From Cryobacterium aureum (GTDB lineage Bacteria; Actinomycetota; Actinomycetes; Actinomycetales; Microbacteriaceae), in the NCBI RefSeq assembly GCF_002954245.1, contig NZ_PPTG01000052.1, positions 1 through 64,000 on the forward strand: a stretch of 64,000 nucleotides of DNA, written 5' to 3'. The position numbers and the translations under genes were made by a program. Under the pieces are notes generated by a model that saw only the letters and a program-made list of their open reading frames with translations, did not search any database and had not been told where the DNA came from. Positions 3,210 through 24,927 of the stretch are shown in pieces (the stretch's first letter is position 1; the number at the start of each line of letters is the position of its first letter).

Positions 3210-3215
3210 CTGTAA
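3174..3215 (+). repeat. attL-like direct repeat (tRNA 3' end), copy 1
   Basis: This is a 42-bp segment starting ATCCGTCGG and ending CTACTGTAA. It covers the 3' end of the tRNA from the anticodon stem plus six bases downstream. It is repeated without mismatch at 54617-54658. Similarity continues past the core for about 50 bases on both sides of the island (TTTCTTGTCT, ACCGAAAGGGCAAGACTTGA), as expected for integrase arm sites. Integration at a tRNA 3' end that rebuilds the tRNA is the classic outcome of tyrosine recombinases. Confidence 0.92.
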
Positions 3216-3380
3216 ATTTGATCTGATCAGGGTTTCTTGTCTGTACCGAAAGGGCAAGACTTGATGCACTATCCGTTTATTGGTCCTTTATTCAAAAATA
3301 TCCGCCATCTCTGGCCGCTCGTAGAGAAGGTGCACGACCCGGTTCGAGTCATGTGGAATGACCTCGCTTACCTACGAGTT

Positions 3381-7743: not shown

Positions 7744-8478
7744 ATGGCCCTTTTCGACGCTTCCCAGTTCACCGCCTCAAAGGCAAAACCGCTCCCAGTC
7801 ATTCTGCTGCTCGATACGAGCGGCAGCATGGCGCTCGCCACGCAGGGGGGCAACTCTGGCGAGAAGAAGATCGACTCGCTGAATGGAGCTGTCCGGCGCA
7901 TGCTGGGCACCTTCACCAGGGAGGAGTCCCAGGCGAATGAGTTCCTGGTGTCGATCGTCGCGTTCGGCGGCGACGCCTCAGTCGCCACGTCGCCTACGCC
8001 GGCGTCGGAGATCGCCTTCCTCGACCTCCATGCAGGCGGCCTCACGCCTTTCGGCGAGGCAATCGATGTAGCCAAGCGTCTGATCGAGGACAAGGAGCAG
8101 ACCCCTTCCCGCGCTTACCGCCCCCTGGTCGTCCTCGTGTCGGATGGCGTCCCCACTGACTCGTGGCAGGACCGGCTCGACAACTTCATCGGGACCGGGC
8201 GCTCGGCGAAGTGCGACCGTATGGCGCTGGGAATCGGGCAAGAGGCGTACGAGGGGGTCGGCCGTGCAACGCTGGAGCGATTCATCGCCGGAACCGAGCA
8301 CCAGGTGTTCGAGGCGAAGGATGCGGAAGAGATCCACAAGTTCTTCAGGTTCGTGACGATGTCGGTCGTCAGCCGCAGCCTGTCTCTGGACCCGAATGCG
8401 GTCCCCAAAGATGCGACCCTCCAGCCGCCAGCCACCGCCACCGAGTCCGCTGTAGACGAAGACAGCTACTGGGGATGA
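7744..8478 (+). CDS. TerY-like von Willebrand factor A protein
   Basis: This is a 244-residue vWA-domain protein with an intact MIDAS metal site: DTSGSM (residues 24-29), a conserved Thr in GGLTPFGEAI, and a following Asp in VLVSDGVPTD. It belongs to the TerY type, which works with a PP2C phosphatase and a kinase in TerY-P modules of stress and defence loci. The start at ATG 7744 is chosen because AGGAG (7732-7736) stands seven bases upstream; a TTG 15 bases earlier is less likely. It is the first gene of the long unit, and its stop overlaps the next start by four bases (ATGA). Likely cytoplasmic. Confidence 0.88.
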   Translation: MALFDASQFTASKAKPLPVILLLDTSGSMALATQGGNSGEKKIDSLNGAVRRMLGTFTREESQANEFLVSIVAFGGDASVATSPTPASEIAFLDLHAGGLTPFGEAIDVAKRLIEDKEQTPSRAYRPLVVLVSDGVPTDSWQDRLDNFIGTGRSAKCDRMALGIGQEAYEGVGRATLERFIAGTEHQVFEAKDAEEIHKFFRFVTMSVVSRSLSLDPNAVPKDATLQPPATATESAVDEDSYWG

Positions 8479-8936
8479 CCCTCTGGCTCATATGCGATGC
8501 CTCAGGCAGCATGATCGAAGGCGGCAAGCGCCTCATCGTGCGTGGCGTCGTACGACAGGTCGAACAGTACCTCCGCCTCGGTCATTCCACTAATGTCGAT
8601 TTGCGCCTGATTATATGGCGGGACCACGCCGCTGAACTCGGCTGGATCATTGGCGACGAGGTGCCCGGCGAGTTGCTTGAGTGTCGAGGGTCTGTCGATG
8701 CCGCTGAGCTCTTGGCGTTGCTTGGACACGACAGCAATGACCGCTACCTCATGCTCACCGATGGCTTCTGGCCCGACGATTCAAGGGAGGAGCTCAAGCA
8801 TTGGCGGGACAGACTCTCCCCTGACGCGCTTCGACTCATCAAGATTGGGGCTGACTCCAACCCCAAAATGATAGGTGATGAGGTGTTCGAGGCCGAGTGC
8901 CTCCTCGAAGCGCTGGACGGGTGGCTCGCGCGATGA
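8475..8936 (+). CDS. second vWA-like protein (short)
   Basis: The 153-residue protein has a vWA MIDAS sequence at its extreme N-terminus (DASGSM, residues 8-13) and LMLTDGFWPDD further on, matching the MIDAS Asp loop. At about half the length of the preceding vWA protein, it is a minimal vWA fold. It may form a pair with that protein, or act as an adaptor presenting clients to the kinase and phosphatase. ATG 8475 overlaps the upstream stop and its TGA 8934-8936 overlaps the next ATG, so it is tightly coupled on both sides. Confidence 0.8.
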   Translation: MTLWLICDASGSMIEGGKRLIVRGVVRQVEQYLRLGHSTNVDLRLIIWRDHAAELGWIIGDEVPGELLECRGSVDAAELLALLGHDSNDRYLMLTDGFWPDDSREELKHWRDRLSPDALRLIKIGADSNPKMIGDEVFEAECLLEALDGWLAR

Positions 8937-9673
8937 TGCCAACCACCTGGAAGAGTTTTGGAGCCAGCGTTACGGGCCCTTCCCACGTCGCGACGGGCAA
9001 ACCGAATCAGGACGCGTGGTCCGCATTCGAGCATTCCTGGGGATACGGGATCGCGGTAGCCGACGGTCTGGGATCGAAGCCGCATTCGGACTGGGGGAGC
9101 CGCGCTGCCTGTCGAGCGGTCGAGGCTTCGGCATCCCGCTTGTGGACCGACCACCGGCACCCGATGCTCCAGTCCCATTCGAGCGAACTTTTGCCGGGCA
9201 TCGTCGAGGAATGGCTGTTCGCGATCGATCCCTTTGTGGAGAAAGACTGCGCTGCAACGTGCTTGTACGCAATCACCTCCCCCGACGACCAGATCCATCT
9301 TGGGATGCTCGGCGACGGCGCCGCGGTGGCTGTACTCCAGGACGGGTCGGTGATCGTACTCTCCGACTCCAAAGATGAAGGCTTCTCGAACCTCACGAAC
9401 GCGCTCTCAGCAACCACAACACTCAATCATTGGCGGGTGCGGAGTGTCGTCGCGTCGGAGTGCGCAGCTGTACTCCTGTGCACTGACGGCGTCGCCGACG
9501 ACGTGGAGGATCTGGCCGGCTTCGCGCGGGGCTTCGTAAAGGCATACGAGGGACTCGGGAGTTTGGCGGCGTCGCGACGCGCCTGGGAGATGCTCAGCAC
9601 GTGGCCTGTGCCGAAACACAGCGACGACAAGACCCTCGCGTGCCTGATCAATGTGGTGACTCCCGATGAGTGA
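8933..9673 (+). CDS. PP2C-type (PPM) protein phosphatase
   Basis: The 246-residue protein is predicted to remove phosphate from Ser/Thr residues with two metal ions. The PPM motifs are present in order: GKPNQDAWS (near residue 25), VADGLGSKPHSDWGSRAA (about 42-60), GMLGDGAAV, LLCTDGVADD and HSDDKTLACL. The start is ATG 8933, which overlaps the preceding stop; upstream codons in this frame belong to the vWA gene. It should counteract the kinase encoded next (8-base overlap), forming the phosphatase arm of the TerY-P triad. Confidence 0.9.
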   Translation: MMPTTWKSFGASVTGPSHVATGKPNQDAWSAFEHSWGYGIAVADGLGSKPHSDWGSRAACRAVEASASRLWTDHRHPMLQSHSSELLPGIVEEWLFAIDPFVEKDCAATCLYAITSPDDQIHLGMLGDGAAVAVLQDGSVIVLSDSKDEGFSNLTNALSATTTLNHWRVRSVVASECAAVLLCTDGVADDVEDLAGFARGFVKAYEGLGSLAASRRAWEMLSTWPVPKHSDDKTLACLINVVTPDE

Positions 9674-11006
9674 GGTGTTCCAACGCGCACGAAGTACGGC
9701 ACTCGCCGACCAGTACGGTTATGTCCACCAGGTCGGAGCGGAGCTAGCCCGCGGCGGTCAGGGCGTCGTCTACCGGACGGGCGATGCCGACCTCGCCATT
9801 AAGCAGCCGCTGGGCCCCGACGGAGAGCCAGACCACGCGTCGAACCTGCAATCTCGCTTCGAGAATATCCGAACGTTGCCGATCCCGCCGCGCATCCCGA
9901 TCTCACTGCCGCTGGCAACACTGCGCGATGGGCCCGGATACGTAATGCAACTTCTCAACGATATGCGTCCGTTCAGCATCTTCGACCTGAGTGGCGACCG
10001 CCGCGAGCAGATAGCGAGGAGCCCACGCCCGGCATGGCTAGCTGGTATCGAAGACGTGAACACCGTCGCAACGCTCATGCACTACGCCGAGTCGGGATCG
10101 ACGAAGCACCGCCTCATCGCCCTCTCTAAGGTCGCCGCTATTCTGGGCCGTCTCCACGCGGCTGGCCTCGTCTACGGCGACATCTCACTCAACAACTGCT
10201 TCATCGACGAGGGCTACAACCCTGAGGTCTGGCTCATCGACGCCGACAATCTGCGCTGCGAAGTCTTGAGCGGCGGGAACAGCGTGTACACACCGCGTCT
10301 CGGTGCACCGGAGGTAGTGCAGGGTCGTGATCAGTCACGACCGCGTACCGATGCTTGGGCCTTCACTGTGATGGCTTTCGAGATGCTGGCTCTCGTGCAT
10401 CCGTTCATCGGGCAGAAGGTGCTCGACCCTGATGACGACGCAGGGGGCTGGGACGCCGAGCCTGTGGCCGCGGGCGCTCCGGCCGATCTCGACGAGCAGG
10501 CGTACGCCGGGTTCTTGCCTTTCGTCGATGACGAGGACGATGACACGAACATAACGATGAGCGGGCTGCCTCGCGGACTGGTGCTCACTGCCGAGCTTTC
10601 ACGCCTGTTCCAGGAAACTTTGTCAGTTGGCCGCACCAAACCCTGGCGGCGACCTGCGATGTCTTTTTGGGCGTTTGAACTGATGCGAGCACACGACCAG
10701 TCAATTACTTGCCCCGGGTGCAGAATGAGCTACTACCGCACCTATGACACCTGCCCGTTCTGCTCGGCGCAGCGACCAGGATTTGTAGTTGCGACTACGG
10801 ATCGGTGGCAGATGACGGTCCAGGGACATGGCCAGGTTGAAGTCCCACTCCCACACCGCCTCTTCAACCCTTTCTCGCTGGAGCTCAACGGCAGGACGGA
10901 TTTCGAGGCATTGATTGACTTCGATCGTGGCACTGCGACGCACGTTCGCGGAACGGGTGCGCTGCCAGCAGGACTGGACTTCGAGCTTGTCAGAGGAGGG
11001 CTGTGA
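9666..11006 (+). CDS. atypical Ser/Thr protein kinase with C-terminal zinc ribbon
   Basis: The N-terminal kinase domain has the glycine loop LARGGQGVVY (near residue 28), the ATP-binding Lys in LAIKQPLG (about 46), the catalytic loop LVYGDISLNN (about 168-177, Y-G-D replacing H-R-D but Asp and Asn kept), LIDADN in place of DFG, and GAPEVV as the APE element. After an acidic insert (about 255-295) comes a four-Cys zinc ribbon, CPGC and CPFC (about 349-366), and a beta-rich tail. The 446-residue kinase would phosphorylate partners within the system and is opposed by the PP2C upstream. The stop overlaps the helicase start by four bases. Confidence 0.87.
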   Translation: MSEVFQRARSTALADQYGYVHQVGAELARGGQGVVYRTGDADLAIKQPLGPDGEPDHASNLQSRFENIRTLPIPPRIPISLPLATLRDGPGYVMQLLNDMRPFSIFDLSGDRREQIARSPRPAWLAGIEDVNTVATLMHYAESGSTKHRLIALSKVAAILGRLHAAGLVYGDISLNNCFIDEGYNPEVWLIDADNLRCEVLSGGNSVYTPRLGAPEVVQGRDQSRPRTDAWAFTVMAFEMLALVHPFIGQKVLDPDDDAGGWDAEPVAAGAPADLDEQAYAGFLPFVDDEDDDTNITMSGLPRGLVLTAELSRLFQETLSVGRTKPWRRPAMSFWAFELMRAHDQSITCPGCRMSYYRTYDTCPFCSAQRPGFVVATTDRWQMTVQGHGQVEVPLPHRLFNPFSLELNGRTDFEALIDFDRGTATHVRGTGALPAGLDFELVRGGL

Positions 11007-14000
11007 AGTTCTCGGAACTTCCGGGACAGAGGCTTTCCGTCCGGGTGTTGCCCACCGACCGCATCGATTTCAGCGACCAGCTCGATCAGCGCAGCGGGAC
11101 CATGACCGTCCTGACGGTCGAACCAACGAGCGCGGAGGGCCAGTTCGGACTTGCACTTCGCGAAAGCTACATACACGTTCGTCCTGTCAGCGAGACCGAA
11201 GCGCAGCGGCTCAATGACGAGTTGCTCCACGGAAGGGCGATGCTCGCCCAACTCTCCGATCCTGGGGTCGACGGGAGCGCCGAGCTTTCCGTGGTCTTTT
11301 TCACCGGCCAACCAAATGACCTCGGTGACGTCGAAGTCGGTCTAGATGAATACGTCATACGGGCAGCTCAACGTCTCGGCCGCCAGTCGGCTCGCAAGGT
11401 ACCCGGCTGGATTCAGACCCAGTTTGTCTACGAAGTAGACGGGCTGCACTACTTCTTCTTTGCGGCAGGACCAGCAATCGGGGACGCGCTTGCAGCAGGT
11501 CAGGTTGATGAAGGCGCGGGACCGGTCGGACCGTACGAGACGTCTTCCGCGGAAAATTCGGATGAGCCAACCCACTTGCCGCACGAACTTGCGTCAGCGC
11601 CCAGGGTCGACCAGACGACGAAAAACTCCTTCATGCTCGTCGGCACTCATGCGCGCTGCGTCGCCACGGATACACCCGTCGGACATGGACAATCAATCTA
11701 TGTAGCCACGAAAATCACGGCGCGCAGCCCAGAGGTCGACCCGACAATCCGGCTCGCGCGGGGCACGTTGAAATTCGTTAACTGGTCGGAGGCTGGCCAG
11801 ATTCAGATTCGATCCCGTGCTCAACTCGCGAGCCTGACACTGGACGAGTCGAGCTACATGCGCAAGTGGGATGAGTTCGGCGATCTTGAAGGCACGCTTC
11901 TTCTCGATCAAGCCAGAGAAATCGGGCTGGTTCGATTCACGACGCCGACTGAGAATCGTGATGGGACAGTCACGATCCAGATCACGGATGCCTCGGACTC
12001 TGCTTTCGACGCGCTCCGTAGTGGAAACGTGGAGGCACTTGAGCTCGTAGATGCCGTGCCGAGCTACCTCAGCAATACTGCCCTCACCTTCGCTGAGTTC
12101 TCCCGGCAGATCGCATTGGGTGCAGGCGTCGGCGATCGGACGCGTCAGGGGAGGGCTGATCGTGTGTCGGGAACGACCATTCCGGTCGGTCGCTTCGACA
12201 ACGAATCACTTCGCCTCACACTCCAGATCGAACGACTTTCACCGGACGGCATGCTTGTGCTGTCGCTCCAAGGCGAGATCGCGCAGATCCGACGACGTCA
12301 CGCTGCCCGCAGAGCGATTCTCGAAGGTCGGTCCGCGAACCCTCAGCTCGGGCTGCTTATCGAAGAGAAGGGCGAGATCACCTCGATGCGCTCACCGCAG
12401 AAGGTTGCGCCACTCACTGCCTTCGTGCGCGACAAGGTGTTCCGGAACGACCCGACGGTGATGCAGGAGAAGGCGATCGAGGTCGCGCTCAACACCCCCG
12501 ACATCGCCCTTATTCAGGGGCCACCTGGTACCGGAAAGACGACCGTGATCGCGGCGATCTTGGAGCGACTCAACGAGAACGCGTCGAAGTCTGGCCGCTC
12601 ACTGAAGGGGCGCGTGCTGCTGACCGGGTTCCAGCACGACGCGGTCGAGAACATGATCGACCGCATTTCGCTCAATTCCATCCCCGTCCCGAAGTTTGGC
12701 AGGCCCACGGGGGCGGATGACAGCACCGAATCGTTCGAGCGCAACCTCGAAGTCTGGTGCAAGCAGATCGCAAACGAGTTGCGAGAGCGGAATCCGCAGT
12801 TCGCCGACATAGAGCACGAGGCGGATATTCGAGACCTTTATCAGCAGTACCTGCAGGGCCCATCGCGGCGGCTTGCACTGGCGTTTGTGACCCGAATTGC
12901 TGCGCTGAACGTGTCAGACCTCGGCGAGGAGCTGAGTCGTACCGCGACTCGACTGCTAGATCGCCTTCAAGCCGAAGACACGACGTCCGTATCCGGGCTG
13001 GCGTTGGCACCAGTCGCTGCGGCGCGCCGATTGCGAGTGCGCGCCGAGAGCTTCGCAGACGACGGGCCCGAGCGTGCCGAAGATGCGCTCGTCGATCTCG
13101 AGTTTCTCCTCACCGCAGATGAGCGCGGCGTCTTGGACAAGGCGAGTCTTTGGACGCAGTCACGGGGTACTCCTCCGTTCTTGGGGGAACTCGTTGGCGC
13201 GAAGAAGTCGCTTCTGCAGCGTCTCAAGGCTCCTCCAGAGTTTCGGGTGGAGAAGCATAGCGACGAGGTGCTCGGTCTCGGCCGACGAGTACTGGATCGG
13301 CTTCGTACCCACGGGCACGCAGCGTCCGACCGAAAGTCGGCTGCGCTTGCACAGTTCCTGGCAGAACTCGAGAACAACCCGTGGGGCATGGTCGATGCGG
13401 TTGCCGAGTACAGCTACGCGTTTGCCGCGACCGTCCAACAGTCCGTGAACAATGAGATGCAGCGACGGAAGGGTCTCTCGGCCGGTGAGTCCCAGGACCT
13501 CGAGTACGACTACGTCATCATCGACGAGGCAGCACGCGTATCGCCGCGAGACCTGATGATCCCGATGTCACAAGGTAAGCGCATCATCCTTGTAGGGGAC
13601 CACCGTCAGCTTCCTCACCTCATCGACGAGGCGGTAGCCCACAGAATGGAGTCCGGCGAGGCTGGCCCCACAGAGAGCGAGTGGCTTAAGCGATCAATGT
13701 TCGAATACCTCTTCGCAGAGCGATTGAAGGCGCTCGAGACACAGGATGGCATCACGCGTAGGGTAACACTGGACCAGCAGTTCCGAATGCACCCTGTCCT
13801 TGGCGGATTCATCAGTCGCAACTTCTATGAACGCTTCGACCCTGCCGAGCGCTTCGGGTCGGGTTTGCCCGAGGGCCACTTCGCCCACAACCTCCCGGAC
13901 ACGCAAGCACGACCAGCGATGTGGCTTCCCGTGACAAGCGACCAGGGCCCCAGCCGCCGTAGCGGCACCAGTTGGATTCGTCAGGCAGAGGCCGATCGAA

Positions 14001-14623
14001 TCGTTCAGCAAATCCGTGACTGGATTCGCTCGCCAGAAGGAGAGAGTCTCACCTATGGCGTGATCTCGTTTTACAAGGCGCAAGCCAACTTGATCCGCGA
14101 TCAGCTCCGGGAGCTCCTCGGTGACATCGCTGACAATAAGCACCGCATCAGAGTGGGCACCGTCGACTCATTCCAGGGCATGGAGTTTGACGTGGTGTTC
14201 CTGTCCGTTGTGCGGACAGTCGCGCCGAATTGGTCACCAAGAAGTGCAAACGCCGCTGTGAATGCACGTCAACTCTTCGGCCACCTCGGCCTCTACAACC
14301 GACTGAATGTGTCCATGAGCCGGCAGAAGCGACTACTCGTTGCGGTGGGCGACCCAGCGCTCGTCCAACACGACCTCGCTGCGGAACACATCCCTGGCCT
14401 CGTGGACTTCTATCGTCTCGCCGGCGAGGCTTCGCCCGCGCTCCGATCGCCGGCCGACACTGCCACCGTGCGATCGCCCCTCACTTCACCTGCGCCACTA
14501 GTCGTCGGCATGGAACAGCCACCGCCCAAGGGACAGCCTCCGACCAACGATCAGCCGCCGACCGAGGAGGAGCGTCACGGTTTCTTCGCCCGGCTGTTCG
14601 GCAGGGGGCGAGGCTACGTATGA
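11003..14623 (+). CDS. SF1 helicase of the UPF1/Dna2 type
   Basis: The product has 1206 residues. About 500 N-terminal residues form a family-specific region with beta-rich, OB-like character. The motor follows: motif I GPPGTGKTT (about 506-514), motif II DYVIIDEAARV (about 835), motif III VGDHRQLPHL, motif IV region LDQQFRMHP, then VGTVDSFQGMEFDVV and NVSMSRQKRLLVAVGD. These are diagnostic of SF1B DNA/RNA helicases related to UPF1 and Dna2. A roughly 250-residue insert lies between motifs I and II. The Pro-rich tail (about 1170-1190) is probably disordered. In this operon it likely unwinds or translocates on the nucleic acid target; the CoCoNuT helicase CnuH is a comparable component as I recall. 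ATG 11003 overlaps the kinase stop. Confidence 0.92.
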   Translation: MKFSELPGQRLSVRVLPTDRIDFSDQLDQRSGTMTVLTVEPTSAEGQFGLALRESYIHVRPVSETEAQRLNDELLHGRAMLAQLSDPGVDGSAELSVVFFTGQPNDLGDVEVGLDEYVIRAAQRLGRQSARKVPGWIQTQFVYEVDGLHYFFFAAGPAIGDALAAGQVDEGAGPVGPYETSSAENSDEPTHLPHELASAPRVDQTTKNSFMLVGTHARCVATDTPVGHGQSIYVATKITARSPEVDPTIRLARGTLKFVNWSEAGQIQIRSRAQLASLTLDESSYMRKWDEFGDLEGTLLLDQAREIGLVRFTTPTENRDGTVTIQITDASDSAFDALRSGNVEALELVDAVPSYLSNTALTFAEFSRQIALGAGVGDRTRQGRADRVSGTTIPVGRFDNESLRLTLQIERLSPDGMLVLSLQGEIAQIRRRHAARRAILEGRSANPQLGLLIEEKGEITSMRSPQKVAPLTAFVRDKVFRNDPTVMQEKAIEVALNTPDIALIQGPPGTGKTTVIAAILERLNENASKSGRSLKGRVLLTGFQHDAVENMIDRISLNSIPVPKFGRPTGADDSTESFERNLEVWCKQIANELRERNPQFADIEHEADIRDLYQQYLQGPSRRLALAFVTRIAALNVSDLGEELSRTATRLLDRLQAEDTTSVSGLALAPVAAARRLRVRAESFADDGPERAEDALVDLEFLLTADERGVLDKASLWTQSRGTPPFLGELVGAKKSLLQRLKAPPEFRVEKHSDEVLGLGRRVLDRLRTHGHAASDRKSAALAQFLAELENNPWGMVDAVAEYSYAFAATVQQSVNNEMQRRKGLSAGESQDLEYDYVIIDEAARVSPRDLMIPMSQGKRIILVGDHRQLPHLIDEAVAHRMESGEAGPTESEWLKRSMFEYLFAERLKALETQDGITRRVTLDQQFRMHPVLGGFISRNFYERFDPAERFGSGLPEGHFAHNLPDTQARPAMWLPVTSDQGPSRRSGTSWIRQAEADRIVQQIRDWIRSPEGESLTYGVISFYKAQANLIRDQLRELLGDIADNKHRIRVGTVDSFQGMEFDVVFLSVVRTVAPNWSPRSANAAVNARQLFGHLGLYNRLNVSMSRQKRLLVAVGDPALVQHDLAAEHIPGLVDFYRLAGEASPALRSPADTATVRSPLTSPAPLVVGMEQPPPKGQPPTNDQPPTEEERHGFFARLFGRGRGYV

Positions 14624-16584
14624 CCGTCAGGCTGATGGACTTCGGCTCGCCGAACCCCTTTGTAGGAATCTTCGGTCGGCCACGGACGCTCGCTTGGCCG
14701 GTCAACACCTATCGGGTCACCCTGCCGATGAGCGGGCGGGGGAGCAATACATTGAACCCCTTCGAGCAGGTCATCCTCGGCGTCTTGGAGGCCGAGCCCG
14801 GACGGAACCTCTCCGACCTCGCACAGGTGACTTGCATCCCGGAGGGCCTGGTCCGCAGCGTGCTGCTTCGGCTGCGCGACAGGCGACTCATTGACAACGA
14901 CAACCGACCGCCGCAGCAAGCATCGACGGCGAATCCGGAGGATTCGGAGGTTCAGATCGTGACCGCGGTCGTCTTCCAGGAGGCTCTGACCGGTCGGCTC
15001 CTGCCGCACATCCAGATCCTTGACGAAGATTCCCCACTCCGATTCAAGACGCGTGAAGATCTCAAATATTACCAGGGTCGTGTTATTAGGGCGTCCGGCA
15101 GACCCAAGTCACATGCCCACCCTTCGCCCAAGGATGTCATCGCGGTTCTTCGCGAGTCCAGGCAGCGGAGCGCGGCCTTCGGCGGCCGAGCGAAGCTGCC
15201 CGAGCTTTCCCAGATCCGCGTCGCAGACGATGCCGACAGTCACCTGCTCGAGTGCCCGATTGCGATCCAGCGAAGTGATGCCGATTTCCGGATCGCCGAT
15301 CCCTTCGGGAGCGGCTTCTCGCTCATGCTGGAAGAGGTGCTGACTGCTCGGCTGGCGGGCGATGAGTCACTGCAGCAGTGGATGACGGACTGGAGGACGT
15401 CGCTCACATCGACGGAATCAGGCGACAGCAGCAGCAGAGATCGAACGCGCCAGCCTTTCGAGGCCGAGCCATTCCGGAGTCGCTACCCGAGGCTGGTAAC
15501 GTCGCTCGTCGCAGGTCGCACCCGCGGCTACCGGTCGATCGCCAAGATCTACGCCTCATTGGAGTGGGCGCTCTTCTACTGCGCTGACACTCGGGACGCC
15601 GCCAACGCAATTGAGGTGGTGCGCCACACCCGACCTGACGAGTGGAGCGAACACCTGTCTCGAGCCGCTGAGCAGATTGGCCTCAAGGTGCCTGCCTACG
15701 GATTCCGCGCGATCCCACATGGGCGCCTAGCCGACATGCTCGCAGGCAAAGCCGAGATGAGCACAGTGCTGGCGGCTACGTTGGTGCAGGCGGAGCATGA
15801 CGAGGCTCATCCGTTGCGAAAGCTTGCGGAGCGGCACCCAGGTTTCCTCCTGCGGATTCAAGAGATTCGGGAGAGCCGGGACGAGCAGGAGCATGGTGGC
15901 GCAGCCGAGCGGCAGGATGGAGAGTCGCGATTCGATGCGCTGATGTGCGAGTGGGTCACCGCGTTGATTCCGGGGATCCGGTTCGACGGGCCTGCCCTCG
16001 GCACAGGCCACCAGGCCACGGCTGAGGACCGGCGCCTGGATGCTCGGACAGCTGTGATCGGACAGCTCGGGTACGCACTGATGAACCGACTCCCGGGAAG
16101 TGCCCGTGACGCTCTCATCGACGCAGAACGAGCGTGGATTGCGCATTATGACAGCGACGATGCGCTCCCGCTCGTGGGGCGGCTATATGCGGCGCTGCAG
16201 TCCGTCACGATGGATCGCCTCAGCGGTCTACAAGCCGTTGCTTTGCCGGCGCAGGACTATCGCAACGTTGCCACGAGCCGCGCCGAGGTTGCCGGTTTCG
16301 GTCGCATACCGGAAGCGCTCTCAAGAGTGCGCCCCGAGCGAGTTCGGGAGGCCATGTTCGGGAATGGGTCAACCCTGGGAGCATGTGCCATTGCGCTGCT
16401 ACTTGTCCTGAGCGACGAGCAACTGGTGAAGCTGGCGGCCGTCCAGCCCTCCTTGATGGCGGACATCGGTGCCGTCATCTCGCATCGTGGGCATGGCAAT
16501 GAGTCCGTACCACTAAACAAGTCGGCGACCAAGTCGCTGCGCACCTCAGCAATAAACTCAATTCGAACCCTTATGGAGGCCTAG
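14620..16584 (+). CDS. winged-helix protein of unknown function in defence operon
   Basis: The 654-residue protein has no family I can name. Residues about 40-95 look like a winged helix: NPFEQVILGVLEAEPGRNLS, LAQVTCIPEGLVRSVLLRL, then RRLIDNDN. A mixed alpha/beta region and a long helical C-terminal half follow. No nuclease, ATPase or phospholipase D signature is visible. ATG 14620 overlaps the helicase stop by four bases, and its TAG is directly followed by the ATG of the McrB-type gene, so it is an obligate part of the unit. It may be a DNA/RNA-binding adaptor; that is inference from the winged helix only. Confidence 0.8.
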   Translation: MTVRLMDFGSPNPFVGIFGRPRTLAWPVNTYRVTLPMSGRGSNTLNPFEQVILGVLEAEPGRNLSDLAQVTCIPEGLVRSVLLRLRDRRLIDNDNRPPQQASTANPEDSEVQIVTAVVFQEALTGRLLPHIQILDEDSPLRFKTREDLKYYQGRVIRASGRPKSHAHPSPKDVIAVLRESRQRSAAFGGRAKLPELSQIRVADDADSHLLECPIAIQRSDADFRIADPFGSGFSLMLEEVLTARLAGDESLQQWMTDWRTSLTSTESGDSSSRDRTRQPFEAEPFRSRYPRLVTSLVAGRTRGYRSIAKIYASLEWALFYCADTRDAANAIEVVRHTRPDEWSEHLSRAAEQIGLKVPAYGFRAIPHGRLADMLAGKAEMSTVLAATLVQAEHDEAHPLRKLAERHPGFLLRIQEIRESRDEQEHGGAAERQDGESRFDALMCEWVTALIPGIRFDGPALGTGHQATAEDRRLDARTAVIGQLGYALMNRLPGSARDALIDAERAWIAHYDSDDALPLVGRLYAALQSVTMDRLSGLQAVALPAQDYRNVATSRAEVAGFGRIPEALSRVRPERVREAMFGNGSTLGACAIALLLVLSDEQLVKLAAVQPSLMADIGAVISHRGHGNESVPLNKSATKSLRTSAINSIRTLMEA

Positions 16585-18993
16585 ATGGATGCACCAATCG
16601 ACAAGGACAGGCCCCATACAGATGCGCCGACGGCTACGGGAGTAAAGCCGGTCCGGGCGGACGACTTCGCGATTGCGGAGCTCCAGTCGAATCTGGAGCG
16701 GAAGATTGCCGATGTCGGCGAACGACTGAAGGCCACGGAAGCTGCGGCAGGCGCCGCGCAAGGGCTGCTTGACACCCTCGAACGCTTCGCAAACGCCAAC
16801 GCTGCTGATCGCGCCGCTCTCGCGCGCGGAAAGGCCGAGTTCGTCGAGCGACAGCAAGCCGTGTGGCGCGCCGAATCCATCCGCGACGCAGGGTATGCAG
16901 ACGAGCGCGCCAAGCTGGATGCGGAGCTGCTGGACCGGCGGCGAGCACTCGACACGCAACTGAGCACCACCCGCACCACGCGGCTCGCGGAGGTTGCCGA
17001 AGCTGAGGAGGCGGAGCGCGATCGGGTGCGCGCTGCGATCGAAGCAGAGCGCACCGCTTGGGATGCCCGACGTCAACTGCAAGAATCCTCCCTTGCGCAG
17101 CTCATGGCCGAAGTCGAAACACAGAAGGGCGCGGTAATCGCCACGCAGAGCGCGCTCGAGGGCCGCCGCGTGGAGATCGAAGGCCTGGAATCCGAGGCCG
17201 AGCAACGTGAGTCGCGTGCCCGGCGACAGGCGCGGCGTCGCGCCGAGAACCTTCAGGAGGAGGTCGACGATCTTGTTGTCGAGCGGCGCCTGTCTTTCGA
17301 GAGCGCTCTGCAGGCTTCCGCTGCTGAGACGTCCCAACTTCGCGCGACGATAAGGTCGCAGACTGATCTCGTCGGAGCGTACGAGTCATTGAAGCAGCAG
17401 TTGGGCAGCCAGCACCCAGCTGCAGTTATTCAGATACTCAACAGCAAGACCGATGAGATCACGCGTCTGCAGGAGGAACTGGCGACTCGGCCGACGGAGG
17501 AGATGCGCACCCGGTACGAAAGCCTCGACGCGGAGTATCGACGTGTGCTGACGCTCGCTGAGCAGCGGGAGGTGAAGATCAACGCGGATGCGCAAGTCGT
17601 CGCACAAGTGACCGCATTCCAGCACGAGAACAGCGAGCTGAAGGCGCAGAACGCATCGCTTGATCGCCTGGCGCGAAACATGGAGAGCGAAGCGCAACGG
17701 CTCGACGCCGAGCTGAACCGCCTTCAGGCAGCGTACGAGCGACCGGCGGAGGTCGAGGCACGCTACGACGAGATCGAATTGCCGCGGCTGGCGGCAACGG
17801 AGATCAAGCAGCCTCCAGTCGCATCGGGCATCGACGAGTTGACCTGGCTCACGGGCATCGCCCGGGCTTCCGATGCATACGGACTGCACTTCAACCCGCG
17901 CATCTTGAAGGCATTCCACACTTCGCTGAAGACGGCCGAGTGGTCACCGCTCACTGTCCTCGCCGGCGTGTCCGGTACGGGCAAGTCAGAGTTGCCACGG
18001 CTGTACTCGCACTTCGGCGGCCTGTTCTTCGAGCCGCTCGCCGTGCAGCCAAACTGGGACAGTCAGGAGTCGATGCTCGGCTTCTTCAACTCGATTGACA
18101 ACCGGTTTGATTCGCAGCCCGCGCTTCGCTTTCTTGCCCAAAGCCAGAAGCCATGGACAGCTACAACCGACGGAAGCGGGTACCCGGGCCTCGCGGATGC
18201 CGTGTCACTCGTCCTACTCGACGAGATGAACCTCGCCCACCCAGAGCTCTACTTCGCCGAATTCCTGAGCAAGCTGGAATTTCGCCGAGGCATGAAGGGC
18301 TCCGACGTTCCGCGCCTGCCAGTCAAGATCGGCGCGGGGATGCCGCCGTACGAGTTGCCGTTGGGTCGGAACGTGCTGTGGACCGGCACGATGAATCAGG
18401 ATGAGACGACCAAGTCGCTATCCGACAAGGTGCTCGACCGGTCGATCATCATCCATTTCCCCCGGCCGACAGAGCTGAAGCGGCGTCTGAAGCTCGCCGC
18501 CCTGGACGGCAACAACCGTGGCGCACTCCTGCACAAGAGCGACTGGAATTCTTGGAAGGCACAAGCAAGTGGCTTCTCCGACGAAGAAGTGACGCCGTTC
18601 AAGTCGTTCATCGAAGAGATGAACACGTCCCTCGCGGTCGTCGGTCGCGCCCTCGGCCACCGCGTCTGGCAGTCGATCGAGTATTACATGGCCAACTACC
18701 CGGATGTGCGCGCCGCCGGCGACGACACGGCGAGGCGTGCCGAGGCGATGCACATCGCCTTTGAGGACCAACTCGTCCAGAAGGTCATGCCAAAGCTCCG
18801 CGGTATCGACACTCGCGGCAAGAGCAAGGACGAGTGCCTGGACAAGATCCGTGGCCAGCTCACCGTTGGGGTCAATAGCCGTGAGTTCAACCTCGACGAA
18901 GACTTCCTCTTGGCCACGGAACTCGGCTACGGCCAGTTCATTTGGCAAACCGCGAACTACCTGAAGGCTGACGATGCCGGCAACGCTGGGTGA
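16585..18993 (+). CDS. coiled-coil McrB-type AAA+ NTPase
   Basis: The 802-residue protein has an N-terminal half (about 30-420) that is an extended coiled coil rich in Glu, Ala, Arg and Leu. The C-terminal half is a McrB/MoxR-type AAA+ domain: Walker A GVSGTGKSELP (about 460), Walker B LVLLDEMNLAHPE (about 540) and TGTMNQDETT (about 602), the Met-Asn-x-x-Asp signature of McrB GTPases. McrB translocates on nucleic acid and drives a nuclease partner. Fusion to a long coiled coil is the feature for which coiled-coil nuclease tandems (CoCoNuTs) are named. It abuts the preceding stop and overlaps the next gene by 20 bases. Confidence 0.9.
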   Translation: MDAPIDKDRPHTDAPTATGVKPVRADDFAIAELQSNLERKIADVGERLKATEAAAGAAQGLLDTLERFANANAADRAALARGKAEFVERQQAVWRAESIRDAGYADERAKLDAELLDRRRALDTQLSTTRTTRLAEVAEAEEAERDRVRAAIEAERTAWDARRQLQESSLAQLMAEVETQKGAVIATQSALEGRRVEIEGLESEAEQRESRARRQARRRAENLQEEVDDLVVERRLSFESALQASAAETSQLRATIRSQTDLVGAYESLKQQLGSQHPAAVIQILNSKTDEITRLQEELATRPTEEMRTRYESLDAEYRRVLTLAEQREVKINADAQVVAQVTAFQHENSELKAQNASLDRLARNMESEAQRLDAELNRLQAAYERPAEVEARYDEIELPRLAATEIKQPPVASGIDELTWLTGIARASDAYGLHFNPRILKAFHTSLKTAEWSPLTVLAGVSGTGKSELPRLYSHFGGLFFEPLAVQPNWDSQESMLGFFNSIDNRFDSQPALRFLAQSQKPWTATTDGSGYPGLADAVSLVLLDEMNLAHPELYFAEFLSKLEFRRGMKGSDVPRLPVKIGAGMPPYELPLGRNVLWTGTMNQDETTKSLSDKVLDRSIIIHFPRPTELKRRLKLAALDGNNRGALLHKSDWNSWKAQASGFSDEEVTPFKSFIEEMNTSLAVVGRALGHRVWQSIEYYMANYPDVRAAGDDTARRAEAMHIAFEDQLVQKVMPKLRGIDTRGKSKDECLDKIRGQLTVGVNSREFNLDEDFLLATELGYGQFIWQTANYLKADDAGNAG

Positions 18994-21900
18994 GGTCTAT
19001 CAGGCGTTTGGCGAGGACAACGAGGCTGGGGCGGTTGCGCGTCGACTGATCGAGCAGCAGCACTGGTACAACTCGTTCGCCGAGTTCGATCCGAAGACGG
19101 GGCAGGCGCTGCCCCTCGGGCTCGACGAGGTCCTCCGCCGACTCGTGAAGCCCGAAGAGGATGCCGAGATACGCGATCGCCTGTGGCGGATTGTCGAACA
19201 CGGTCGTGTAGCCGTTGGCCGACTCTTCCACACGCTCAATGAGAGCCCACACCGCGAGCAGGCGACGCTGCCCATCCGCGCCGTCAGGGAGCTGAATGCC
19301 ACGAGCTTGATCGCCCTCAACCGTCGGCCCGGACGCAACATCCGCGAGAAGCTCGCGGGCAACCCCTACATGCAGGCTGTCCGCAGGTACCAGTCGACCG
19401 ATCTGCCTGAGAACCGGCTGCTCAAGGAGTACGTCACACGGCTCGCTGATCTGCTCGAACTGCGAGCCAAGCATCTCCTTCGCGAGGACCCGCTGCTCGC
19501 CGTAATATATCGTTGGCTCCACACAGACGAAGCGAAGGCCATCTCCCGATGGGGTAATCTTCCCCCGAACAACACTCTCCTTTCGCACAAGGACTACCGC
19601 CGTGTCTGGGATGCCTGGCGTCGGCTGCAGACGCTTGACGAGGACCTCCATGCAGACGTGGCGCAGGCAGGCGCCCGCGCTGCACTCATTAGTGAGTGGC
19701 AGAGCTTGGCGTCTTCGTACGCCGCCGGGACAACGTTGTTCGGCGACATGCCTGTGCTGTTCGACCATGAGGCCTTCACCATAACCCCGTGGATTGCACT
19801 GGTTGCCGTTAAATCTGTGCAGACTGCGAATCGGCGCGCCGGGCTGACGCTGCGAACCGACCGGGCAGTCTGCCTCGACCTGACTGGAGTCCATCCGAGG
19901 CTCGCCACCGAGTCGGGCACGCCGGAGGCGCTACCAGATACGTTCGTTTGGCAGCGATGGCAACGGAAAGGCGACGCTGTCGACATCAACCTCTTTGAGG
20001 CGGAATTTCCAATCCTTCACCCGGACTCGACCACAGTCGCTTTACCCGACCTGTTCTTCCGCAGCGACCTGGACCCGTCTCTCGCCGACATCGCCGCCCA
20101 CTCATTTGCCCGGCGACTGCGGTCGCGCTTCCGGGATGCGGCGTTGACATGGCTGATCCCGGACCGACTGAACGAGTTTGATCTCGGGGTGCTGCGTCGG
20201 AATATCAATGCGCGGTTCCCGGCCGCGGAGCCACTGCCTCGATCGGTGGCCGCGGTGTTCGAATCTGTCGAGCACAAGCAGATCAAAAGCGAGGGCTTCA
20301 CCGTCCTCGTTGTCGACACGACAGGCTGCATCACAACGGCAACGAGGCTAATCGCAAGAGTGGACAGCGAACTAGCTGAGCGGGTGCCGGCAACTCGCGG
20401 CTACTACTGGGAGCGAACGCCCACAATCAGTCTCGAGGACGCCGGTGCGTTCGATCCCCTAGATGCGATCGCCTATGTCGGTGCAGATGGGCAGTGGCGA
20501 GATGCCAAGACGAGTGGTCACCCTAGCGCCGTCACTGAGAAAGCGTTGCAAGCCAACCAGCAGATCGAACCGTTTGACGAGCTGATTCATGTCATCACCA
20601 GTCCAGTCGTAGGCGGCATGCGGGTCCACCAATTGCAGCTCACCGCTGGCGATATTCCGATCTGGCGCGACCAGATCCCTGAACTGTCGATCAAGGTGCA
20701 TGTCAGTGGCCGCTATGAGTCGTTCTTCCTGGTCAACAAGCACACGACGATCCGGCCGATCAGGGGTCTCGCAGTCGAGATTCCTGTGGTCGAAGGGTTC
20801 ACGCTTCCGGCCGGACGCACCCATTACCAGTTCCCGCTGTACCAGGGCAGCGACGCCAGCGATCTGGGCTTCGAGGCGCGCTTGGATTCCCCTAGCTTCC
20901 CGTTGGTGACGGACACCCGGTGCCGCTTGACCATGACGTACACCTACGGCGCCGACGAGCCGTACCGGCTCGTGCTGAAGGCCATCGATAGCTCGCTTCC
21001 GCCCATTCACGTGAAGTGGCGGCCGAAGTCGGACGAGCCCATGACTGACGCACCAGCGCCGGGCTACCCGCGGCCGATGACGTGGGCGGAGCTCCAGCGC
21101 AACTATTACGCGGCGAAGGACAGATGGAATGACTATCTCGACTGGGTTGTCACCGCGACACAACGACTTCTGGACAACGTAGAGAATCCGACCATCGTTG
21201 AACATCGGACACATTCGGGCGCTGTTGAAAGCGACTGGAGAGTGGACCGGAACGGGAAGTCCTTCACGTTCGTCGATGGACTGTTCGTGCACGAGAGCTC
21301 GCTTCGTGACGGTCTGACAACTCTCAGTGTTCGGCGAGGAGACTTCCTTTACTACGACATCGCAGAGTCAGCGGACGGGCGGTCTCATGCTCGGAATGTG
21401 TCGACTCAGCGCTCATCGACACGTCAACTCAGACCCGTTGATCCCGGTGCCGTTCGCATAAGTCTCTTTGTCCCCTACATCAAGACCTGGGGCGATGCGC
21501 GGTCTGTCACTGACGATGCCTGCCCTCCCAACTTCCGTAGCCAGATGGCAGAGCTTGTCCCGCGGTTGGAACTCGCAATGCGAGCTCCGGCTACGAATAC
21601 CGAGTTGCAACGCGAACTCCACTTCCTCTTCTGCTGTATGCACCGTGACATGCCGACATCCGTGAGTCGCGATCTGGTGAGCGGTGCTTCAGCCAAGACC
21701 TTGGATGATCGGGCGTATGCGTTTGCGCTCGGTGACCTGACGCAGGGCTGGCAGAAGGAGGTGTTCCTGGCGATCTGGAATCGTGCAGATCTCCAGACGC
21801 TTTCCATCCTCGCCCAAGCCATCTGGCGTACGCACGACTTTGTACGGGTGTTCGATGCCGCATCGCTTGCCTGGCTCGGTGAGCGCCTCCTGACTGAGAT

Positions 21901-22261
21901 GCAGAAGACTAACGAGGTGAAGCGACCCGACAAGCAGGATGTCTCCCGGATGACCCACTACTGCGAACTCCTCCTCGGACTCCTGCGGAGCCGCGATTCA
22001 GAGGTGCCAGAGGTGCGAATGACATTCCAGCCGAGTCAGGAGCTCACGACGCTACTCGCTGACCAGGTTGAACGTGCGGCATCGTTGATTGATCGATCTG
22101 GCATCCTGCCGCGGTCGCGGGTTGAAATCGCGGACCTGCCCGACAAGCCGGAAGGTGACACTACGCCCGACCTGCTCTACGCCCTCCGCCTTTTCCTGAT
22201 TGGCGACGTGGGATCGAACGCGATTCGAGTGACCGGCGTTCTCGACGGAGATGATGATTGA
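18974..22261 (+). CDS. large DUF2357-like partner of the McrB-type NTPase
   Basis: The product has 1095 residues. The N-terminal part resembles DUF2357: LPIRAVRELN, then GRNIREKLAGN and STDLPENRLLKEYVTRLADL (about 140-160); P-E-N-R-x-x-K is the family hallmark. DUF2357 proteins usually accompany or fuse to McrC-like nucleases, but no PD-(D/E)xK motif is visible here. A central stretch with TVLVVDTTG (about 440) resembles an actin/Hsp70-type phosphate loop, and beta-rich regions follow (about 540-690). Hsp70-like domains are known in CoCoNuTs, so this may be the RNA-facing subunit; that part is inference. No convincing HEPN active site was found by eye. Confidence 0.78.
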   Translation: MPATLGEVYQAFGEDNEAGAVARRLIEQQHWYNSFAEFDPKTGQALPLGLDEVLRRLVKPEEDAEIRDRLWRIVEHGRVAVGRLFHTLNESPHREQATLPIRAVRELNATSLIALNRRPGRNIREKLAGNPYMQAVRRYQSTDLPENRLLKEYVTRLADLLELRAKHLLREDPLLAVIYRWLHTDEAKAISRWGNLPPNNTLLSHKDYRRVWDAWRRLQTLDEDLHADVAQAGARAALISEWQSLASSYAAGTTLFGDMPVLFDHEAFTITPWIALVAVKSVQTANRRAGLTLRTDRAVCLDLTGVHPRLATESGTPEALPDTFVWQRWQRKGDAVDINLFEAEFPILHPDSTTVALPDLFFRSDLDPSLADIAAHSFARRLRSRFRDAALTWLIPDRLNEFDLGVLRRNINARFPAAEPLPRSVAAVFESVEHKQIKSEGFTVLVVDTTGCITTATRLIARVDSELAERVPATRGYYWERTPTISLEDAGAFDPLDAIAYVGADGQWRDAKTSGHPSAVTEKALQANQQIEPFDELIHVITSPVVGGMRVHQLQLTAGDIPIWRDQIPELSIKVHVSGRYESFFLVNKHTTIRPIRGLAVEIPVVEGFTLPAGRTHYQFPLYQGSDASDLGFEARLDSPSFPLVTDTRCRLTMTYTYGADEPYRLVLKAIDSSLPPIHVKWRPKSDEPMTDAPAPGYPRPMTWAELQRNYYAAKDRWNDYLDWVVTATQRLLDNVENPTIVEHRTHSGAVESDWRVDRNGKSFTFVDGLFVHESSLRDGLTTLSVRRGDFLYYDIAESADGRSHARNVSTQRSSTRQLRPVDPGAVRISLFVPYIKTWGDARSVTDDACPPNFRSQMAELVPRLELAMRAPATNTELQRELHFLFCCMHRDMPTSVSRDLVSGASAKTLDDRAYAFALGDLTQGWQKEVFLAIWNRADLQTLSILAQAIWRTHDFVRVFDAASLAWLGERLLTEMQKTNEVKRPDKQDVSRMTHYCELLLGLLRSRDSEVPEVRMTFQPSQELTTLLADQVERAASLIDRSGILPRSRVEIADLPDKPEGDTTPDLLYALRLFLIGDVGSNAIRVTGVLDGDDD

Positions 22262-24003
22262 CGATGAAGCATTACCTGCTGACCTGGTACGGCATGACCG
22301 ACTTGCGCGCCGCACTCGCGCTTGACGCCACGGATGGGCCAGTTCTCAGCGCGCTCAGGACCGGCGACTACACCGACGTCGTCATCTTGGCCTACACGGA
22401 CTCTGGCAAGACGGGGCCGTCTGCAGGCGCCGCCCCGCCGAGCTCTGGATTGACCCGCGACGAAGCACAGTGCGTTACCGATGCAGTCAGCAACACTCCG
22501 GCCGGGCATGACTTGTTTGCCGCTTGGCTGACGAAGTCCTTAGCTGCTGGCGGACTCACGGTACGCGTGCGGGTCGTTCCGCAGGAGTTGACGCACATCA
22601 ACGACGCAGCCGGGATTCACAGTGCTGCGTCGACCGCCGTCCGTATGGCGCTGTCCGACCCGAGCGAGAAGCAGATCACGACCTATGTAAGCCCCGGCAC
22701 GCCCGTAATGGCCTACACGTGGGCCCTGATTGCGAGGTCCAACCCGCAGCTGCGCCTTCGAGTAATCTCCAGTTCTGACCCCCGGCGCCCGCCGGAGGAG
22801 ATTGCATTGCCGACCTCCCTGTTGAACCCGTCTATCGGCGGTGCCGGATCGATTGGGGCGACAACCAGAGACTATGACCTCGTGATTCACCTTCTCGGTG
22901 AGCAAGTGATGCCAATCTTCTTTGCCCTCCGCCAGTTCGCCGCGAAGCGCCATGTGATCCTGACAACGCGGGGCTACCTCGACGAGGTCGATCGCCTTGC
23001 GAAGGTGACCGCGGTCGAGCCTGACCCGGTGGTGATCGCCGACCCGTTCAAGCCGGCCGACACGAAGAAGGCCATCACCGCACTGGTCGCGTCTATGTCC
23101 GACGGAGTGAGGGTTGCCGTCAACATGACCGGCGGGACGAAGCTCATGTTCGCCGGCGCGCTGTCGGCGTGCTGGGCGCTCGGGCTGGATCCGTTCTACT
23201 TCGAGATCAAGAACCACAACGTCATTTTCCTGCGCGATGGGACCCAGGTTCCGTTCGTTGGCATCTCAGACGTTGAGGACTTCCTTCGCGCTGGCGACTA
23301 TCACGCAGTGACCGCGGGCCATTGGCCAACGCAGAATGACAGCATCAAGAATCGACGACTGCCGGCGACTGAGGAGCTGTGGCGACGGCGCGATGCGCTT
23401 CGATCCCTCTACAAGGAGCGAAGTTTCCTTGAGTTCTCGAACAAGTACGACCGGCACTATCCGCGACACGAGCGAGACGACCTCGAGTTCTCTTTTGCCT
23501 GGGGCGGGGGAGAGGCGTCGCTCAACCAAGGCGGCAACCCGACGCTGACGCTCAAGGGCACCCGGCTGGCAATTCCGAAGCGTGATTTCTTCCCTTTCAT
23601 CGCGGGAGGATGGCTTGAGGAGTATGTGTATTCCCTGCTTCGACCGTTAGTAGAAGAGGGTGTTGTGCGGGACGTGCGCGTCGGGTTCGAGGTCGGGCAC
23701 CGCCAGGACACTAGCGCGAAACACGAGAAGCTCGCGCAGGAGTTCGACTGCACATTCACCGATGGAAAACGGCTCTGGATCGTCGAGTGCAAAGCCGGCC
23801 CAGTGAAGCAAGAAGCGATCCAGAAGCTTGAGAACAACCTCCGCCAGTACGGCGGAATTGCCGCACGCGGCATCATCGTCTCTTCGTTCCAGCTCACGGA
23901 CGCTAACCAGAGTCGGATCGACTCGATCCCGACGATCACGGGGATCGATCCTAATGGCCTCACGACCGACGCGCTGAGGCTCATCATCAAGGCAGCGCAG
24001 TAG
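22258..24003 (+). CDS. CARF-domain nuclease (Card1/Can2-like) with RtcR-like N-terminus
   Basis: The 581-residue protein has three parts. The N-terminal sensor-like region has YVSPGTPVMAYTWALI (about 143-158), as in RtcR-like CARF domains. The middle contains VNMTGGTKLMFAGAL (about 287-301), the Card1/Can2 CARF signature that binds cyclic oligonucleotides. The C-terminal PD-(D/E)xK domain has EFDCTF and LWIVECKAG (Asp near 497, E-C-K near 508-510). Such proteins cut DNA and/or RNA when a cyclic nucleotide or cyclic-phosphate ligand binds. TTG 22258 overlaps the upstream stop and has GGAG seven bases before it; ATG 22264 is the alternative. It is the last gene of the unit and its likely effector. 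Confidence 0.87.
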   Translation: MTMKHYLLTWYGMTDLRAALALDATDGPVLSALRTGDYTDVVILAYTDSGKTGPSAGAAPPSSGLTRDEAQCVTDAVSNTPAGHDLFAAWLTKSLAAGGLTVRVRVVPQELTHINDAAGIHSAASTAVRMALSDPSEKQITTYVSPGTPVMAYTWALIARSNPQLRLRVISSSDPRRPPEEIALPTSLLNPSIGGAGSIGATTRDYDLVIHLLGEQVMPIFFALRQFAAKRHVILTTRGYLDEVDRLAKVTAVEPDPVVIADPFKPADTKKAITALVASMSDGVRVAVNMTGGTKLMFAGALSACWALGLDPFYFEIKNHNVIFLRDGTQVPFVGISDVEDFLRAGDYHAVTAGHWPTQNDSIKNRRLPATEELWRRRDALRSLYKERSFLEFSNKYDRHYPRHERDDLEFSFAWGGGEASLNQGGNPTLTLKGTRLAIPKRDFFPFIAGGWLEEYVYSLLRPLVEEGVVRDVRVGFEVGHRQDTSAKHEKLAQEFDCTFTDGKRLWIVECKAGPVKQEAIQKLENNLRQYGGIAARGIIVSSFQLTDANQSRIDSIPTITGIDPNGLTTDALRLIIKAAQ

Positions 24004-24132: not shown

Positions 24133-24222
24133 TCAGAGAGAGGATGGGTTGCGGTCCGGGAAGGCTTCGCCGAGGGCTTCGACAAGCAGGTCGGCAGGGT
24201 CGACAACATGAGGTGCAGCCAT
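24133..24222 (-). pseudogene. IS256-type transposase, N-terminal remnant
   Basis: The ORF starts at ATG 24222 on the minus strand and reads MAAPHVVDPADLLVEALGEA, followed by nine residues and TGA. The first 20 residues match the usual N-terminus of actinobacterial IS256 (Mutator) transposases. The rest of the gene is missing. It marks an IS-mediated rearrangement at the end of the defence block. Confidence 0.6.
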
Positions 24223-24927
24223 CGTGATCACTCCAATTCGAGGATTCGGTAGAAGGTTGACTCGAAGGATCACACGATGAACGCACTTTCGTCAGTAACG
24301 ACGAACCGGGTCGCCGGGCTACACCACGTCATGGTGCACTACTTGCTTGCCAGGCAGTACCCCCACCGTTTACTCATTGGAATCACCCGTTACCTTCCGC
24401 AACGAACTCGCTAAAATCAGATCAGGCCAACCGCCTGCATCCCTAACAACTCAAGGGGACCCAGCGGTATCCGAGACATCAGGAAACACCTGCTGACCGG
24501 GGATTCATCAGAGGGTCGCAGGATGAGATCTGTCACGGCCGACCTGAAAACGAGGCGGTTTTCGAGACTGCGGCTGGACGGTCCCTGACAGGACTTTCGT
24601 GTTCCAAGGGGACAGTGCAGGCAAAATTCTGCGGCCTCTTGCTCGATGCCCCAGAACGGGTTCGCGAAGCGCGCGGTTGCATCGTGTCGCAAGACCCGAT
24701 GCCCAGTTCACTACGGCCGAACTACCAACCACTCTGTGCGTACCGGTGCTCGTGGACCCGAGATGATTGTCGCCTCCGCCAGTGGTTGCGCGCGGCCGAT
24801 GGTTGGTCACGTTGCCCCGAACTATCTTGGCAAGGAGACCATTAACCTCCGTGCGGATTCCTGCGACGAAGAAGCCTCTCTCTAATCCTCTTGTGGGTCA
24901 CTGCGCACCTTCGTCACGACGACGGAG
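24223..24927. other. 705-bp region without a supportable gene
   Basis: Short open frames occur on both strands (for example 45 codons from ATG 24277), but none has recognisable domains or a good ribosome site. The first part is probably the former upstream region of the IS256 copy. The last part should contain the promoter of the relaxase gene and possibly its origin of transfer. I could not identify a nic site or a clear inverted repeat by eye. Confidence 0.4.

Follow-up and report, generated by a model that had tools for sequence, protein, structure and literature searches.

What is the 654-residue protein encoded at positions 14620-16584 on the forward strand of a 64,000-nucleotide (nt) stretch of Cryobacterium aureum DNA (the window; positions 1 to 64,000 of contig NZ_PPTG01000052.1)? 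The initial annotation of this locus had recognised a winged helix and, in the remaining 550 or so residues, nothing; it had placed the protein in no family and, from the way the gene is locked between a helicase gene and a McrB-type gene, taken it for a core component. Here, we find that the protein fits CnuE of the Type III-A CoCoNuT systems described by Bell et al. 2024 (PMC11090510), so a recognisable family does exist. In an anti-virus operon of this kind it is very probably the predicted RNA-cutting effector, and as such belongs to a described family and is not a new kind of protein. The operon context gave the lead to this reading.

The gene was exactly as annotated, with an ATG start and 654 codons plus stop. 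Its start overlaps the helicase gene (11003-14623) by 4 nt and its end abuts the McrB-type gene (16585-18993) with a gap of 0. Homologs came from 16 plasmid records and from 11 of 43 candidate stretches of genome contigs. Two alignments were kept separate: A2, with the window protein and 11 genome-contig homologs (12 sequences), and A1, with the window protein and three plasmid homologs. Since the start agrees, exactly or nearly, across the 14 aligned homologs (11 with 34-42% identity and three with 20-25%), which also retain their place in the operon, the open reading frame (ORF) is a genuine gene. The gene order helicase-CnuE-CnuB-CnuC is kept in 14 of the 14 homologous loci (in L017, at a contig edge, with the 3' end of the helicase gene only), in line with a core component. 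Among 396 genomes of the phylum, the only full-length match was the genome of origin, six others showing short stretches (E 1.7e-4 to 8.1e-4). Of 60 near-relative genomes only the genome of origin held a relative, the other 59 being without a match, and one pattern scan of viral contigs found none.

Sequence libraries reveal little of this protein, which is why the winged helix alone had been recognised. For the window CnuE, Pfam returned no family at E≤1 and NCBIfam a single chance-level row (E 0.068). Over the 12 CnuE sequences, Pfam gave weak, scattered rows only, the best being wHTH-PRTase_assc with 8.7e-4 in one member, and a sequence search of the PDB retrieved weak winged-helix regulators only (best E 0.12). 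PADLOC gave a weak match to MkoB (E 6.3e-5), covering residues 23-204. The statement that nothing is recognised in some 550 residues thus stands for Pfam and NCBIfam; it fails once motifs and an RnlA-like fold are considered, with the MkoB match as a weak further hint.

The protein can be divided into a winged helix (residues ~22-133), linker helices, and two predicted HEPN domains, HEPN1 (~307-462) and HEPN2 (~466-654). HEPN1 contains a predicted catalytic R-x4-H motif, RDEQEH (codons 420-425; 15877-15894, forward strand); HEPN2 contains a predicted shortened RxH motif, RGH (codons 623-625; 16486-16494, forward strand). We counted these residues over 15 sequences, namely the 12 of A2 and the three plasmid homologs of A1, among which L014-L016 are closely related to one another. 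R420 and H425 are invariant in 15/15 (12/12 in A2, and in all three plasmid homologs). H625 is likewise present in 15/15 and R623 in 13/15; within A2 these counts are 12/12 and 10/12, and the three plasmid homologs have both residues. In A2, R420 is the sole invariant arginine, and H425 and H625 are the sole invariant histidines. Invariant polar residues number eleven, and the C-terminal motifs supply three of them with these Arg and His positions.

An AlphaFold2 (AF2) model of CnuE (m16a66d0be2e3; 12 sequences, mean predicted local distance difference test (pLDDT) score 75.6) is nearly all-helical from residue 307 onward and displays helices at 235-263, between the winged helix and the HEPN region. 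The winged helix noted earlier is seen in the model, residues ~40-100 matching MarR-type and Z-alpha winged helices with Z 8-9.6. The Z values for this model were taken from a second structural comparison of the matches found by Foldseek, in which 50 entries are listed. For the C-terminal part, residues 468-654, the best match is the HEPN RNase toxin RnlA of Escherichia coli: the best four PDB entries are all RnlA, with Z values of 10.9, 10.1, 10.1, and 9.8 and root-mean-square deviations (rmsd) of 3.4-4.2 over 126-137 residues, mainly of model residues 468-654. Only five of the 50 listed entries extend beyond residue 300, namely the four of RnlA and one of Csm6 (Z 8.2, 135 residues). RnlA and Csm6 carry the HEPN-type Arg/His motif and form dimers of chains with one HEPN domain each; CnuE, unlike them, has two predicted HEPN domains in one chain. 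The resemblance to RnlA is structural, without a sequence match. The initial annotation had set a strong match to an accessory toxin against its own reading; a toxin-like fold was indeed found, but in a core effector rather than an accessory protein.

Profile-profile comparison, which had been proposed as a check together with structure prediction, relates the two C-terminal domains to each other. Alignment of HEPN1 with HEPN2 by hhalign gave a score of 33.1 (E 1.5e-4) over 103 columns, with R420/H425 laid on R623/H625. Among 100 column-shuffled controls the score never rose above 20.9; a reversed control came to 12.4, and comparisons of five further region pairs to 11.8-13.2. When the most divergent row was removed, the score was 28.5 (E 9.3e-4). 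Because the domains align motif on motif and above the shuffles, the two C-terminal halves of CnuE look like an internal repeat, in which the second motif is three residues shorter.

Several observations weigh against the assignment as a nuclease. R623 is absent from two of the 12 sequences of A2 (L012 and L013). The predicted template-modelling score (pTM) of the model is 0.46, and H425 lies in a stretch of low confidence (residues 422-435, pLDDT <50). Foldseek alone returned no match at E≤0.001, RnlA appearing at E 1.5 and 2.4, and a Z of about 10 (under 13) is, by the comparison tool's own note, not decisive for helical bundles. None of the 50 listed entries matches the fold of HEPN1 directly, and this domain is supported only by its motif and its relation to HEPN2. 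For the internal repeat, hhalign gives a probability of only 52% despite the E-value, and 23% without the most divergent row. DUF4145, used as an outside HEPN yardstick with a profile from 13 of 15 loci (L055 and L056 omitted), gave HEPN1 a marginal match of 28 columns round the motif (probability 1.8, E 0.028); for HEPN2 there was no match (E 0.28). Finally, our literature search found no report of an activity of any Type III-A CnuE. Since helical bundles can reach such Z values by chance and the Foldseek matches are not significant, the fold match supports the motif evidence but could not carry the claim alone.

These points bear on an alternative in which the HEPN-like domains are catalytically silent here, CnuE is an adaptor joining helicase and GTPase, and the Card1-like CARF protein of the operon is the sole nuclease. 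The loss of R623 in two of 12 homologs and the shortening of the second motif to RxH would fit such an adaptor, as would the score of the Card1-like nuclease domain, which lies above its cut-off. However, R420, H425, and H625 are invariant in 15/15 sequences, and an inert scaffold would need none of them. In addition, tblastn found no CARF gene in three of the 14 loci (L010, L017, L021), with limited flanks and with L017 on a contig end; CARF therefore cannot be the sole nuclease everywhere. We consider a silent CnuE unlikely.

The operon around cnuE consists of nine genes in a row on the forward strand, each overlapping or abutting the next. It begins with a TerY-like VWA gene (7744-8478; Pfam VWA_2 9.6e-10, VWA 1.5e-9), with upstream homologs in L008, L009, L010, L013, and L021. 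A second, short VWA gene (8475-8936), which overlaps the first by 4 nt, has a DxSGS motif and no Pfam match at E≤0.1; its homologs immediately precede the PP2C gene in 10/14 loci. The PP2C-type phosphatase (8933-9673; PP2C_2 6.6e-41) is encoded in an ORF open from 8897, and the ATG at 8933 gives a 4-nt overlap with the second VWA gene. It is followed by a Ser/Thr-type protein kinase (9666-11006; Pkinase 4e-7, 30.1 bits, just below the curated cut-off of 31.7), at whose C-terminus a zinc-ribbon-like CxxC...CxxC pattern can be read. PP2C and kinase were found in 13/14 loci, the exception, L017, being cut off by the contig end. The helicase gene, cnuH (11003-14623), encodes a UPF1-like superfamily 1 helicase (AAA_12 6.9e-32; MkoA 3.5e-86; IGHMBP2 family 4.2e-37, below the equivalog cut-off).

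Downstream of cnuE, cnuB (16585-18993; PDC-M26A 2.3e-23) encodes a McrB-type GTPase with a long charged stretch at its N-terminus and the NxD motif (NQDE), which is found in the window and in 14/14 homologs. The cnuC(D) gene (18974-22261) encodes a DUF2357 region (1.1e-3, below cut-off) and an Hsp70-like domain (residues ~296-684); the AF2 model of CnuC, for which the alignment (A3) comprised the window protein and 10 of 11 loci (L015 omitted as close to L014), matches DnaK with Z 18.3 and an rmsd of 4.5 over 341 residues. Pfam and NCBIfam matched no nuclease family in CnuC, a missing match being no proof that PD-(D/E)xK is lost. At the 3' end, and overlapping cnuC by 4 nt, lies the gene of a CARF protein with a Card1-like endonuclease domain (22258-24003; Card1_endonuc 3.2e-12, above cut-off; CARF_Card1 0.043, below cut-off). 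Where a CARF gene was found in the other loci, it is 5' in 9/14 and 3' in 2/14 (L012:17798-19507 and L013:16590-18338).

The setting of cnuE mid-way in this row of genes speaks against the protein being the transcription regulator of the operon, with a MarR-like winged helix on the promoter and a helical C-terminus as sensor or dimerisation domain. The match of residues 40-100 to MarR-type winged helices would be expected of such a protein, but the C-terminal motifs account for three of the eleven polar positions that are invariant, and the conserved region that follows the winged helix (residues 112-247) is unlike a simple regulator. A role as a regulator is thus most improbable.

The operon fits a Type III-A CoCoNuT system, apparently complete, and this type is directly supported by both CnuE and its neighbours. 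As described in PMC11090510, CnuE has an elongated winged helix and two HEPN ribonuclease-like domains with the same motifs. Our protein shares with it the winged helix, the two predicted C-terminal HEPN-like domains, the RxxxxH and shortened RxH motifs, and the gene position between cnuH and cnuB. The surrounding genes agree in the VWA/PP2C/kinase triad, the NxD McrB GTPase, the Hsp70-bearing CnuC, and the CARF-nuclease partner; the triad (TerY-P) is frequent in Type III-A, though not core. Type III-A is further characterised by a coiled coil between winged helix and HEPN in CnuE, by SmpB-like and RNase-toxin-like domains at the CnuH N-terminus, by a long coiled coil fused to the McrB GTPase, and by loss of the PD-(D/E)xK nuclease from CnuC. 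The window operon differs in lacking an ATPase extension between its two VWA genes, which are direct neighbours, and in having CARF at the 3' end. In the extended operons of the published description, an ATPase lies between two VWA genes, and there a 3' move is noted solely for a third variant, with a VirB4-like ATPase. L013 likewise combines adjacent VWA genes with a 3' CARF, and L012 has its CARF gene 3' too, whereas L008 and L009 have CARF within the 5' part of the operon. We regard the arrangement in the window as a small variation from the described Type III-A.

Of the plasmid-collection homologs, the one nearest to the window CnuE (41%) is that of L008, a Caballeronia plasmid operon (L008:575-8503) in which WXG100, FtsK/SpoIIIE-type, and CARF genes lie between two VWA genes. 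This insertion resembles the EssC extension described in PMC11090510.

Type II CoCoNuT also has a CnuE with a winged helix and HEPN, beside a UPF1-like helicase and a TerY-P triad. According to PMC11090510, however, its CnuE has one HEPN domain and its CnuC retains an inactivated nuclease and has no Hsp70 unit, and the Hsp70-like unit is what separates Type III-A CnuC from that of Type II. We rejected Type II on the two related C-terminal domains in CnuE and the Hsp70 fold in CnuC.

If the protein is CnuE, its elongated N-terminal winged helix most likely holds it on CnuH, whose gene it overlaps; a complex model of Bell et al. 2024 (PMC11090510) likewise suggests a contact between winged helix and CnuH. 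The HEPN domains would most likely pair within one chain to form a single, metal-independent ribonuclease (RNase) site. CnuH, together with the McrB-type GTPase and with CnuC and its Hsp70 unit, may detect stalled translation or RNA that is viral or aberrant, and the VWA/phosphatase/kinase triad might set the switch through phosphorylation. Cleavage of RNA by CnuE would then serve restriction first; should that fail, CnuE and the CARF nuclease would together bring about growth arrest or suicide of the cell. We infer the RNase activity of the window CnuE, as well as an anti-phage function of this copy of the operon. No test of any Type III-A system turned up in our literature search; for Type II, PMC12735699 includes a CoCoNuT among systems cloned into Pseudomonas aeruginosa PAO1 and reports that all but JukAB gave resistance to at least one phage. 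With this assignment, an anonymous stretch of 550 residues becomes a predicted RNase with four named residues for mutation.

One may go further, if tentatively, and propose that CnuE is a single-chain HEPN pseudo-dimer which arose by internal duplication, that its composite RNase site is gated by the helicase through a winged-helix clamp, and that CoCoNuT and Mokosh form one superfamily in which the effector is swapped, Mokosh carrying PLD; on balance we would put this somewhat below an even chance. Neither the pseudo-dimer nor the shared superfamily was found stated in the literature searched for Mokosh, CoCoNuT, and UPF1 together. In the main text of PMC11090510, the words "Mokosh" and "duplication" both occur 0 times; the same text relates that such helicases generally associate with winged helices fused to varied effectors. 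If both the pseudo-dimer and the shared chassis were true, one principle, a helicase holding a swappable nuclease via a winged helix, would join two separately named defence families.

The link to Mokosh draws mainly on the PADLOC profile, which makes the shared chassis a lead. The profile of MkoB matches four of 12 CnuE sequences, and MkoB is alike in its winged-helix part and in its position beside a UPF1-like helicase. Two loci of the phylum (L022 and L023) hold an MkoB-like gene in overlap with the end of a gene for a helicase with AAA_11/AAA_12 domains. MkoB differs in its effector, a PLD domain that Pfam recognises in L022; in L023 it is indicated by an HxK motif alone, with no PLD domain by Pfam at E≤0.01. 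An hhalign comparison with MkoB-like proteins, in which three of 20 loci (L022, L023, L030) and 50 shuffles were used, gave for the N-terminal part of CnuE a score of 40.8 (E 1.5e-4) over 115 columns, the best shuffle scoring 22.1. Against L022 and L023 alone, E was 0.64, under the best shuffle; the profile signal therefore stems from L030. MkoB was tallied in 120 of 396 genomes, but since many of these matches cover no more than the C-terminal part of the profile, the count says little about MkoB.

L030 itself is an open frame of 522 residues in another genome of the phylum; it matches the winged-helix part of MkoB, contains RNNATH (R-x4-H), and, judged from these features of its sequence, is possibly another winged-helix HEPN protein. 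Strings of the form R-x4-H occur once in the MkoB-like protein of L022, three times in that of L023, and twice in L030.

The same evidence bears on the simpler alternative that our protein is MkoB of a Mokosh-type system rather than part of a CoCoNuT. The MkoB profile does match its winged-helix part (E 6.3e-5 in the window; best 1.1e-9 among the four matching sequences), the window helicase matches MkoA, and the MkoB-like gene of L022 and of L023 overlaps a UPF1-like helicase gene too. Yet the match ends at residue 204, and in place of the HEPN-type motifs of CnuE, a PLD domain (PLDc_2 4.7e-7) is found in the MkoB-like protein of L022. Separate genes encode the kinase, McrB GTPase, and CnuC in the window, and hhalign of the CnuE N-terminal part against L022 and L023 showed no signal above the shuffles. 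To our knowledge, Mokosh as usually described is without McrB and CnuC genes. We therefore hold an MkoB identity to be barely credible. A full-length MkoB with a PLD effector was rejected, the match being confined to residues 23-204 and the window CnuE having no PLD family; a transposition protein, named in the initial annotation as a contrary finding, was likewise rejected, no transposase family being matched in Pfam or NCBIfam.

The CoCoNuT operon itself seems to lie on an integrated mobile element. After a tRNA-Met gene (3136-3210) come an excisionase-like helix-turn-helix gene (3237-3614) and a tyrosine integrase gene (3557-4663). An 87-bp stretch from the 3' part of the tRNA gene onward (3174-3260) is repeated at 54617-54703 with 95% identity, and the two repeats look like element ends, with about 51 kb of integrated DNA and the CoCoNuT operon between them. 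The system, apparently complete, is in this way placed on what seems to be an integrated mobile element, in a genome whose 59 sampled relatives showed no match.

The gene at 4657-6009 encodes a fusion of a phospholipase-D-like MIT_C domain with a BrxL-type ATPase that lacks the N-terminal part and covers only profile positions 90-306. This gene begins within the last bases of the integrase ORF, as though a deletion had brought the two together. Just downstream of the operon, a TrwC-type relaxase with a helicase domain (24928-28440) is a sign of conjugative transfer. A stretch of about 120 bp at 24155-24279 shows 88-89% identity to stretches of eight plasmids of Rhodococcus, Gordonia, and Mycolicibacterium, of which seven have no listed gene beneath the match and one has it over an IS256-family transposase; this stretch could be a transfer origin or the end of an insertion sequence.

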